Shown here one piece after another: positions 15,725-61,985 of a DNA stretch of 64,000 nucleotides. The stretch comes from Geosiphon pyriformis. Its lineage: Eukaryota; Glomeromycota; Glomeromycetes; Archaeosporales; Geosiphonaceae. A program made the position numbers and the translations under genes. The stretch is taken from assembly GCA_016748015.1 (NCBI GenBank), contig JAAOMT010000239.1, positions 699,940 to 763,939 on the forward strand. Direction: 5' to 3'. A model generated the notes under the pieces. It did no database searches. It saw nothing but the letters and a program-made list of their open reading frames with translations, and was not told the DNA's origin. The first letter of the stretch is position 1, and every line of letters starts with the position of its first letter.

Positions 15725-17603
15725 ATGTCTTCTTTAATTCCTCTTCGTTAACTTGGTAAAACTGGTACCATGATTCCTGCCATTGGATTGGGTTGCATGG
15801 TTAATTCATTTTCATTTTCATTTTTGAATCTGAAATCAATTCGAGTACACACCATTTCTAAATAGGATTAATTATTTGATAATAGGGAATGAGCGAATTT
15901 TATGGAAGTGCTGATGATGCTCAAAGTCTCAAAGTGTTGAAATGTGCCATTGAATTGGGGTGCACTTTTTGGAACACTTCTGATATGTATGGAAAGGGAC
16001 ATAATGAGGTATGTACATATTATTAAAATGTTGAAATTTATTTAAAAAATAATGTGACCAATTATTATTTGGTAAATCTAGGAATTGATTGGCAAGGTAC
16101 TCAAAGAACATCGAAATGAAGTGTTCATTGCAACCAAATTCGGTTTGTTTTTGAATTTTTTTTGATTGGGTTCTTCCATTTCAATTAGGATATTTCCGTT
16201 TTCAAATATTTTTTATTTTTGAAGGTGTTGTTCGTAACGAAATACACAATATCTATGGTACACCTTTTTTTTTTTGTTAACAAGGTCTTTTATTATATCA
16301 GCCAATATGGCCTTTTCATAAAGCCGACTCACCCAATAACCTAAATTACAAGAATCGGGTGACCATATCGATGGTACACCAGAATATGTTCGCGAAGCTT
16401 GTGAAAAGAGTTTGAAGAGATTAGGTGTTGATCAAATTGATCTTTATGTTCAGCATCGGGTTGATCCTCGAACGTAAATATATTAAATTTCGTAATTGCT
16501 AAAATTCAATCTCTTCCGTATATTCTATGAAAGTCTTGTATATCCAATTATTTTGCTTCAATTCCTGCATTTACATTTCTATATAGGCCAATCGAAGAGA
16601 CTGTAAGGGCACTAGCAGAACTCGTGAAGGAAGGAAAAGTAAAATATATTGGATTATCTGAATGCAGCGCAGCTAATCTTCGTCGTGCTTACAAAGTTCA
16701 TCCAATTGCAGCTCTTGAGGTAAAATATCTGATTTTAGAATGGAGGAAAATAAGTTTTATTTCTTCATGATTTTTAACTTTCATCATTTAGATTGAATAT
16801 AGCCCTTGGACTCTTGATATCGAAGAAAATGGAATCCTTGAAGCGTGTAGAGAATTAGGTGTCACGATTATAGCATATAGTCCATTGGGACGCGGGTTCT
16901 TAACTGTAAGTCAAGTTTTAGTTCATTAAGACTCTTAACTCTTTTCTTTTAATCAGTTTGAATAACTTAAAATTTTGCACAAATGGCAGGGACAATATAA
17001 GTCAATAGAAGATTTTGCTCCAGACGATTTCCGAAGAACAAATCCACGTTTTGAAGGTGAAAATTTCCAAAAAAATCTCGAACTCGTAAATCGATTTGAG
17101 ACTTTAGCAAAGAAAAAAGGGATCTCAAACAGTGAACTATGTTTGGCTTGGGTTTTAGCTCAGGTATGAAAAATGGTTATTTGTTTCTCAAATTAGTGAA
17201 AAATATTGTTAAAAGTCTTGAATTTATTTTTACAGGGAGAGGAATTTGTGGTTATTCCGGGAACTAGGAACATCAAGTAAGTTTTTCTCGAGAATTGACT
17301 GTTTATTTGTTTATTTTAAGTTTCCTGAATCTTCTCAAACCTTTTGCCCTTATTATAATTCATCAAAAAAACTTCAGGCATCTTGAAGAGAATGTTGGAG
17401 CCGGAAAGGTACAATTAACACCTGAAGAAATTGCCGAAATTCGGGATGTGATTAATTCTATTAATATTTCTGGGGAACGATATCCTGATATTCTTTTGAA
17501 GGTAAACTTTTTTTGGGCATTGCTTGTTTCGTAAAATTCTGGTATTAATCGTAATGTATTCTTTTATATTTAAAACTTTTAGGCTCTCGATTCAAGAAAT
17601 TAG
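15725..17603 (+). pseudogene. Aldo-keto reductase copy 1, nonsense codon plus retroposon insertion
   Basis: Ten exons by comparison with its copies: 15725-15799, 15886-16008, 16082-16142, 16225-16473, 16587-16719, 16792-16905, 16990-17163, 17236-17276, 17378-17501 and 17583-17603. It encodes an NADPH-dependent aldo/keto reductase of the AKR13-like type (perakine reductase/YakC relatives): [16 protein letters not shown] (Asp and Tyr), ATKFG (Lys) and QHRVDP (His) form the catalytic tetrad, and [10 protein letters not shown] is the cofactor-binding strand. Codon 9 is TAA where copies 2 and 3 have CAA. Exon 4 carries a 100-bp insert with a 16-bp target duplication, adding 116 bp and shifting the frame. 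Everything else, including all splice sites, is intact. Confidence 0.9.
16265..16364 (-). mobile_element. SINE-like retroposon with poly-A tail
   Basis: The insert starts on the plus strand with a run of about 11-12 T, so read on the minus strand it ends in poly-A. It is flanked by ATATCTATGGTACACC (16249-16264) and ATATCGATGGTACACC (16365-16380), a 16-bp target-site duplication with one mismatch. Copy 2 of the host gene lacks it, giving a clean empty site. The 100-bp body has no ORF. I see no convincing tRNA A/B boxes, so it may be 5'-truncated or the 3' end of a longer element. No second copy was noticed in this window. Confidence 0.82.
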
Positions 17604-17704
17604 AATATTGAAATATAAATAAAACTTTTTTATACTTGAATAGATTAGCCAATTGTAACTTTTCTTCTTGAAAACCTTCCAATTTCGTACCTTGGACGAT
17701 TCTC

Positions 17705-18148
17705 CGTTTTTTTTAAAGACTTTATTACTATTTTTTGAAGATGTTTTTATAAATTTTATTGCTATTTATATCTCTTTTCTCCATGTTTCATATCCCATTA
17801 AATCATAATATTTTGTAACATCAAAACGAATAAATTCATCAATAAAGATTGCTTTATAAATTGTATTGAACTTTTTCTCTCCAATTTTGTTGATAATTGA
17901 AAAACTCTTCTATGTAATCCATTCATAATAATTAACTTTACTATAAGAGTGTTCAATAGGTGGAGTATAGATTGAATTCGTAATTATTTTATTAACTACT
18001 TTGTTTCACTTGAAAGTTTTTCAAAAAATAAGAATTTGCATGCTCTACACTTATTCACTACATTTCGAATGATCTCTTGACATTTTTCACATAGGTTGCA
18101 ATCATGAGCAGCTTCTGGACAAGTTCTTGTGAATTCCTCGTTTTCCAT
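17705..18148 (-). pseudogene. TKL kinase exon-1 relic
   Basis: The minus strand from the ATG at 18146-18148 reads MENEEFTRTCPEAAHDCNLC and then follows exon 1 of kinase 2 (cysteine motif, glycine-loop region, FKE end) with many substitutions and indels. No exon 2 follows, since the sequence continues straight into the end of reductase copy 1. The upstream flank (18200-18300) matches that of kinase 2 at 14280-14345. Confidence 0.8.
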
Positions 18149-59986: not shown

Positions 59987-60039
59987 TCTTGAAAATAAAT
60001 TTATCGGGTATTTCCAAAGAAAATTTATTATTCTTAGAC

Positions 60040-60212
60040 CTTCTATTGGACAAATAACGTTTGATTAAACGTTTGAGTAATTTTGGAAAATGTATTTAAA
60101 GACACCTTGACCCTTTTCTTTTTGAGGTATCTGAGATTTCAAAGTCAGATATAACAGCTACTTTTAATTCCTTTGAATAATCTTTTTCTAAATTTTAATT
60201 TTATCTTGCAAA
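60040..60212 (+). promoter_or_regulatory. Conserved proximal promoter, reductase copy 3
   Basis: Matches 15550-15724. Both AACGTTTGA repeats are present. TATTTAAA lies at 60093-60100, 120 bp before the ATG. Confidence 0.55.
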
Positions 60213-61985
60213 ATGTCTTCTTCAATTCCTCTTCATCAACTTGGTAAAACTGGTACCAAGATTCCTGCCATTGGATTGGGTTGCATGGTTAATTCATTTT
60301 CATTTCCATTTTCATTTTTGAATCTGAAATCAATTCGAGTACACACCATTTCTAAATAGTATTAATTATTTGATAATAGGGAATGAGCGAATTTTATGGA
60401 AGTACTGATGATGCTCAAAGTCTAAAAGTGTTGGAACGTGCCATTGAATTGGGGTGCACTTTTTGGAACACTTCTGATATGTATGGAAAGGGACATAATG
60501 AAGTATGTACATATTATTAATTAAAATGTTGAAATTTATTTAAAAAATAATGTGGCCAATTATTATTTGGTAAATCTAGGAATTGATTGGCAAGGCACTC
60601 AAAGAACATCGAAATGAAGCGTTCATTGCAACCCAATTCGGTTTTTTTTTGAATTTTCTTTGATTGGGTTCTCCCATTTCAATTAGGATATTTCCATTTT
60701 AACTATTTTTTATTTTGAAGGTATTGTTCGTGAGGAAAATAAACACGGTCTCAATAGTACACCAGAATATATTCGCGAAGCTTGTGAAAAGAGTTTGAAA
60801 AGATTAGGTGTTGATCAAATTGATCTTTATATTCAGCAGCGGGTTGATCCTCGAACGTAAATATATTAAATTTCGTAATTGCTAAAATTCAATCTCTTCC
60901 GTATATTCTATGAAAGTCTTGTATATCCAATTATTTTGCTTCAATTTCTGCACTTACACTACTATATAGGCCAATCGAAGAGACTGTAAGGGGACTAGCA
61001 GAACTCGTGAAGGAAGGAAAAGTAAAATATATTGGATTATCTGAATGCAACGCAGCTAATCTTCGTCGTGCTTATAAAGTTCATCCAATTGCAGCTCTTG
61101 AGGTAAAATATCTGATTTTAGAATGGAGGAAAATAAGTTTTATTTCTTCATGATTTTTAACTTTCTTCATTTAGATTGAATATAGCCCTTGGACTCTTGA
61201 TATCGAACAAAATGGAATCCTTGAAGCATGTCGAGAATTAGGTGTCACGATTATAGCATATAGTCCATTGGGACGCGGGTTCTTAACTGTAAGTCAAGTT
61301 TTAGTTCATTAAGACTCTTAACTCTTTTCTTTTAATCAGTATGATTAACTTAAAAATCTTTCACAAATGGCAGGGACAATATAAGTCTATAGACGATTTT
61401 GCTCCAGACGATTACCGAAGAACAATTCCACGTTTTGAAGGTGAAAATTTCCAAAAAAATCTCGAACTCGTAAATCGATTCGAGACTTTAGCAAAGAAAA
61501 AAGGGATCTCAAACAGTCAACTAGTTTTAGCTTGGATTTTAGCTCAGGTATGAAAAATGGTTATTTGTTTCTCAAATTAATGAAAAATATTGTTAAGAGT
61601 CTTGAATTTATTTTTACAGGGAGAGGAATTTGTGGTTATTCCGGGAACTAGGAACATCAAGTAAGTTTTGCTCGAGAATTGACTGATTATTTGTTTATTT
61701 TAAGTTTCCTGAAACCTCTCAAACCTTTTGCACCTTATTCTACTTCATCAAAAAATTGCAGATATCTTGAAGATAATGTTGGAGCTGGAAAGGTGAAATT
61801 AACACCTAAAGAAATTGCCGAAATTCGCGACGTGATTAATTCTGTTAATATTTCCGGGGAACGATATGCTGATATTCATTTGAAGGTAAACTTTTTTTGG
61901 CATTGCTTGTTTTGTAAAATTTAGTATTAATTGTAAAGTATTCTTTTTTAAATTTAAATTTTAGGCTCTCGATTCAAGTAATTAG
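60213..61985 (+). CDS. Aldo-keto reductase copy 3, open frame but altered catalytic residues (333 aa)
   Basis: Exons 60213-60287, 60380-60502, 60580-60640, 60721-60856, 60970-61102, 61175-61288, 61374-61547, 61620-61660, 61762-61885 and 61965-61985. All are GT-AG and in phase, giving 333 residues, a normal AKR length. [21 protein letters not shown] (catalytic Asp, Tyr), [26 protein letters not shown] and [10 protein letters not shown] are conserved. The catalytic Lys is Gln (IATQFG for IATKFG) and the catalytic His is Gln (IQQRVDP for IQHRVDP). The donor after exon 3 is GTTTTTTTT. It is either an inactive enzyme or a protein with a non-catalytic role. Confidence 0.85.

Follow-up and report, generated by a model that had tools for sequence, protein, structure and literature searches.

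Ordinary aldo-keto reductase pseudogenes and a mildly unusual shared active-site variant in Geosiphon pyriformis

A 64,000-nucleotide stretch of the Geosiphon pyriformis genome (contig JAAOMT010000239.1, positions 699,940 to 763,939; hereafter the window) contains three copies of an aldo-keto reductase (AKR) gene within 46 kb, every one on the plus strand. We propose, with a probability of roughly 0.8, that these arose from one AKR13-like gene by recent segmental duplication and are decaying in the window under relaxed selection, and that an intact member of the family survives on contig C106. The original prediction for this DNA had described three copies, each disabled in a different way; it overlooked that all copies carry Asn at position 55 and Glu at position 176 of the active site. 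What the window holds is ordinary pseudogenes of a known family, plus one mildly interesting active-site variant that is worth a second look.

For the window copies, this reading describes a small gene family in ordinary birth-and-death evolution, and recognising it as such saves follow-up. The more useful by-product is that two supposedly canonical active-site positions are changed together, in a eukaryotic gene as well as in a conserved subfamily of bacterial proteins. Residues 55 and 176 are a ready pair with which to probe what the AKR active site truly requires.

Gene models and lesions of the window copies

The window is AT-rich (GC content 17-39% in 4-kb steps) and its genes contain introns. 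Pieces aligned by blastn between the window copies are 89-96% identical and span introns and near flanks as well as exons. The copies and their lesions are as follows.

15725..17603, plus strand: AKR copy 1, a pseudogene with a codon-9 stop and an exon-4 retroposon (10-exon model, translation, alignment)
15749..15751, plus strand: codon 9 of copy 1, TAA where the other three copies have CAA (alignment and gene models)
16249..16264, no strand: left copy of a 16-bp target-site duplication, matching the right copy (16365-16380) at 15 of 16 positions (alignment)
16265..16364, minus strand: the exon-4 insert of copy 1, a poly-A retroposon of 100 bp (relatives dispersed in the genome, poly-A tail, target duplication)
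28699..30443, plus strand: AKR copy 2, a pseudogene with an exon-7 frameshift (10-exon model)
29838..30003, plus strand: exon 7 of copy 2, 166 nt after an 8-bp deletion, against 174 nt in copies 1, 3 and C106 (alignment and gene models)
60213..61985, plus strand: AKR copy 3, open over 333 aa, with Lys85>Gln and His126>Gln, and with the Asn55 and Glu176 common to all copies (10-exon model)
60580..60640, plus strand: exon 3 of copy 3, holding codon 85 (AAA>CAA, Gln for the catalytic Lys; gene model, comparison with relatives)
60721..60856, plus strand: exon 4 of copy 3, holding codon 126 (CAT>CAG, Gln for the catalytic His; gene model, comparison with relatives)

Each lesion named by the original prediction is present. 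An in-frame ATG stands at codon 16 of copies 1 and 2, so copy 1 might escape the codon-9 stop taken by itself; the insertion in exon 4 (net 116 nt) would shift the frame even then. Exon 4 measures 249 nt in copy 1, 133 nt in copy 2 and 136 nt in both copy 3 and C106. Oligo-T at the left end of the insert indicates that it was inserted antisense, with a poly-A tail. Counting itself, the insert has 40 matches in its own genome, from the 40 candidates scored out of 75, and four of the five relatives read end in a poly-A run. The dispersed relatives, the poly-A ends and the target duplication together identify it as a non-LTR (long terminal repeat) retroposon, all three hallmarks of which it displays.

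In copy 2, loss of the 8 bp shifts the frame and leads to an early stop soon after. Copy 3 has suffered no indel in its exons. A broken frame, the mark of a pseudogene, is thus found in copies 1 and 2 and not in copy 3, which instead has lost catalytic residues, the mark of a pseudoenzyme. Copies 1 and 2 probably yield no enzyme.

An intact fourth copy and the identity of the family

A fourth close copy lies on contig C106 (L001:2100-3880), where a 335-aa open frame keeps Tyr60, Lys85 and His126. Reductase activity therefore need not be lost from the genome, and C106 probably encodes a functional reductase, though one whose active site is non-standard. Its last exon (L001 3854-3880) runs into a differing C-terminus, two residues longer than that of copy 3.

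The comparison with other AKR genes of the genome that the original prediction had called for turned up this one further close locus. The genome searched comprises 125 Mb in 406 contigs, and the four loci were recovered by a DNA search and again by a protein search; each of these scores only the best candidates, so a further close copy is not strictly excluded. The protein search adds one distant AKR match on contig C126 (39% identity over 56 residues). Genome-wide there are 27 exon-level Pfam AKR matches, the four copies' own included, and the remaining AKR loci are far more distant.

The PF00248 profile matches copy 3 with 265 bits and C106 with 279.6 bits over the (alpha/beta)8 domain (cut-off 24). 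A protein counts as AKR13 when its identity with a named member of that family exceeds about 40%. The closest solved relative of the C106 protein is perakine reductase, which we take to be the enzyme labelled AKR13D1. At 49% identity over nearly the whole length (PDB 3uyi/3v0s), the C106 protein lies above that mark, and the earlier assignment as AKR13-like was right as far as tested.

Rates of change after duplication

On each terminal branch of the four-copy tree, exons and introns have diverged alike (exon/intron: copy 1 0.016/0.013, copy 2 0.008/0.005, copy 3 0.023/0.023, C106 0.026/0.029). First and second codon positions likewise do not differ from introns on the terminal branches (Fisher p 0.53-1.00). 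With the topology ((1,2),3,C106) we fitted a codon model, in which the ratio of nonsynonymous to synonymous rates (dN/dS, omega) fixed at 1 throughout gave a log likelihood (lnL) of -1889.60, and a single free omega of 0.85 gave -1889.34. Omega = 1 everywhere is not rejected, either against one omega (2 delta lnL 0.5) or with five branches free (1.1). These results support relaxed selection after duplication, one of the two readings offered by the original prediction.

Left free, the branch omega is 0.74 for C106 and 1.10 for copy 3, whose dN/dS the original prediction had proposed to compute. Compared with the neutral model, an omega of 0.2 costs 8.2 log units on the copy 3 branch and 5.0 on that of C106; an omega of 0.5 costs just 1.6 and 0.2 log units, respectively, and is not rejected on C106. 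Strong constraint is therefore excluded on both branches, and weak constraint is not.

Amino-acid changes were also scored on a profile of 80 relatives, counting only positions at which the other three copies agree. This test covers the first 321 codons with coverage, which drops most C-terminal changes (n=5, 5, 15 and 7 for copies 1, 2, 3 and C106). Changes on the C106 branch were milder than random (n=7, P 0.005), as were those on the inner branch (n=7, P 0.001 or 0.0003 depending on direction). The corresponding P values were 0.04 for copy 1, 0.25 for copy 2 and 0.04 for copy 3. We read this pattern as constraint that lasted until about the time of duplication, followed by mostly neutral change in the window copies.

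The original prediction had also pointed to conserved splice sites and proximal promoter. As an observation this stands for the splice sites, with GT..AG borders at all nine introns in each of the four copies, but the recency of the duplications is enough to account for it. All 36 splice-site bases would stay as they were with a probability of 0.35-0.83 per copy, and within the window the 5' flanks of the copies, 190 bp each, are 2.7-5.3% apart, against 3.1-4.9% for introns (9-10% from C106). Both features thus say nothing for function, and we rejected their conservation as a sign of it. The open frame of copy 3 can be set against a similar expectation: a neutral frame with its 23 counted substitutions stays stop-free with probability 0.35 (substitutions only, indels not counted).

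A deamination or RIP-like (repeat-induced point mutation) origin of the lesions was also rejected. Among terminal changes, C>T plus G>A number 8 of 34 in copy 1, 6 of 14 in copy 2, 12 of 44 in copy 3 and 23 of 62 in C106, and any CpA bias is not strong.

Site patterns across the region (window 15412-17669 against 59905-62050 and C106) comprise 29 sites for the main split, 11 joining copies 1 and 3 against copy 2 and C106, and 3 for the other minority pattern. The imbalance of 11 against 3 hints at small gene-conversion tracts.

A non-standard active site shared by all copies

In alignment, all four copies have Asn at position 55, the Asp of the tetrad, five residues before the catalytic Tyr, and Glu at position 176, otherwise the nicotinamide-binding Gln. 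None of them has the complete Asp-Tyr-Lys-His tetrad: Asn replaces Asp in all four, and copy 3 additionally has Gln for Lys and for His. The active site was therefore already altered before the copies split. The claim that the same activity had been lost independently in three copies holds for the lesions; it passed over the intact C106 copy and this older alteration.

To place these residues we used bacterial AKR13-like proteins (up to 58% identity to the C106 protein), keeping the best 80 of 107 loci from Acidobacteriota, Bacteroidota, Pseudomonadota and others; six of the 80 hold a stop in the matched stretch, which was read as unknown. Lys85 is present in 80/80 and His126 in 78/80, which agrees with the catalytic replacements that had been noted in copy 3. 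Position 55 is Asp in 77 of the 80, Asn in two and unread in one, and position 176 is Gln in 78 and Glu in two. One of our two search patterns spanned position 55, permitting Asp or Asn; the 71 relatives without that pattern have 68 Asp, 2 Asn and 1 unread. One pair of loci, L104 and L105, accounts for the Asn and the Glu exceptions alike, and both also have Ser for His. At these two loci the next gene begins directly after the AKR gene and looks, by eye, like an AraC-type regulator.

Among 201 genomes drawn evenly from the order Sphingobacteriales, 66 near-full-length matches with 78-100% identity to L105 were listed. We fetched 35 loci, comprising 31 subfamily members, three ordinary Asp-Tyr-Lys-His-Gln relatives and one (L115) without an alignment. 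All 31 members read (L104/L112, L105/L111 and L117-L145) have Asn55, Tyr60, Lys85 and Glu176 and carry Ser or Cys at the His position; as these are the best-scoring matches (at least 83% identity), the spread of the subfamily is not fully sampled. Judging from this conservation, the subfamily is presumably functional. In a tree, the fungal copies and the Sphingobacteriales subfamily both lie in an unresolved fork, and a single clade of fungal and Sphingobacteriales Asn/Glu proteins is not rejected (AU, approximately unbiased, test p 0.43; 40 of 89 rows, three trait columns omitted). On these alignments, a common origin of the pair is neither shown nor rejected.

According to PMC8524200, Gln-187 of codeinone reductase holds the nicotinamide carboxamide; in each of the mutants D51N, K86M and H119F of that enzyme, oxidation is lost and reduction persists only in traces. 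We read position 176 as the probable equivalent of Gln-187, by way of a Gln-x-Glu motif. Measured against codeinone reductase, the C106 protein too would be expected to be a poor enzyme. That Asn55 with Glu176 can nevertheless work is suggested by the conserved subfamily in bacteria. Loss of Lys, as in copy 3, is seen in none of the 80 relatives and none of the 31 subfamily members read, and by analogy copy 3 is likely to be enzymatically inactive or nearly so. In the open-licence literature we found no AKR paper with a tetrad residue replaced by asparagine, and we do not claim novelty for the pair.

Weighing the explanations

Under the explanation that we favour, one AKR13-like gene whose active site was already non-standard would have given rise, by recent segmental duplication, to the three window loci, with the intact member surviving on C106. 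Drift would then have done the rest: copy 1 would have become a pseudogene by substitution and retroposon insertion and copy 2 by a small deletion, and copy 3 would have lost Lys and His through substitution while its frame stayed open by chance.

The original prediction suggested instead that copy 3 may be kept for a non-enzymatic role, as a pseudoenzyme that binds a cofactor or partner without catalysis and acts in regulation or structure. Its open, indel-free exons, beside the broken copies 1 and 2, and its slightly milder than random terminal changes fit such retention. So does the presence of two tetrad residues among its 18 replacements (simulated P 0.017 for four sites, 0.0075 for three), values that are uncorrected for copy 3 having been picked out for that very feature. 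We found no clear sign of retention in the rates: omega is close to 1 and an omega of 0.2 fits far worse, exons change as fast as introns, and about 35% of equally substituted neutral copies would be stop-free. Unfavourable replacements in copy 3 also extend beyond the active site (R8H, A140G), and we regard retention as quite improbable. Hardly better placed is a somewhat bolder proposal, in which Asn55 and Glu176 would be coupled replacements, together shifting the carboxylate of the active site and defining a working non-standard kind of AKR in bacteria and in a fungus-like genome, and copy 3 would be a further step from which Lys and His are lost and a protein is still made; this too we consider unlikely.

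Loss of Lys and His might alternatively have shifted copy 3 towards C=N or C=C reduction. Known active AKRs do depart from the standard tetrad, as the same source describes (PMC8524200): the natural enzyme DRR has Met and Pro at the Lys and His positions and is active on C=N, and AKR1D1, with Glu for His, reduces C=C. There is no sign of selection on copy 3, however, and Lys is kept throughout the relatives and subfamily members read, which makes a change of chemistry very improbable. We likewise give little credence to the idea that selection against extra enzyme dosage actively favoured the disabling of each copy. Independent lesions in three copies fit it, but neutral decay would produce the same pattern, the rates do not exceed those of introns, and no omega rises significantly above 1.

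Several points count against simple neutral decay. The tests are low in power, with 8-26 exon substitutions per branch, and an omega of 0.5 is tolerated as described above. The four-copy tree is unrooted, so the C106 branch may hold time from before the duplication. In an earlier, looser form of the profile test, changes on all four branches were milder than random (P 0.0001 or less); we set it aside, as splits shared between copies had been scored as changes on terminal branches, though its result leaves some constraint possible during part of the life of copy 3. The activity that the source reports for DRR, which lacks both Lys and His, also means that Gln at both positions of copy 3 is not proof of inactivity.

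Other features of the window

Protein-kinase copies are interleaved with the AKR copies (7711-9265, 12696-14412, 21404-22690, 34074-35989 and 63102-64000), together with kinase fragments at 17712-18350 and 31243-31892. These copies and fragments are 66-96% alike in blastn pieces, and all four of the open reading frames (ORFs) scanned match PF07714. A run of 49 masked bases (N) at 9149-9197 falls within a kinase copy.

Two related sets of long ORFs lie on the minus strand at 39610-46167 and 49445-55536. They are up to 73% alike in DNA, resemble long interspersed nuclear elements (LINEs) in appearance and are broken by frame changes; a Pfam scan of three ORFs from these sets gave no match. A CAA/AAT-rich triplet repeat occupies 37381-37730. 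An Rfam scan of the window returned no match at the gathering score.

Comparison with known systems

In their stop, frameshift and retroposon insertion, and in rates that the tests do not distinguish from neutral, the window copies resemble pseudogenes of duplicated genes generally, and nothing essential differs. Perakine reductase has the same order of motifs around Tyr, Lys and His; it differs in having Asp and Gln where all four copies carry Asn55 and Glu176, and copy 3 additionally lacks the Lys and His. The Sphingobacteriales subfamily shares the Asn55 and Glu176 pair with the fungal copies and keeps Tyr and Lys, but unlike C106 it has Ser or Cys in place of His, and L104 and L105 are just 40-41% identical to the C106 protein.

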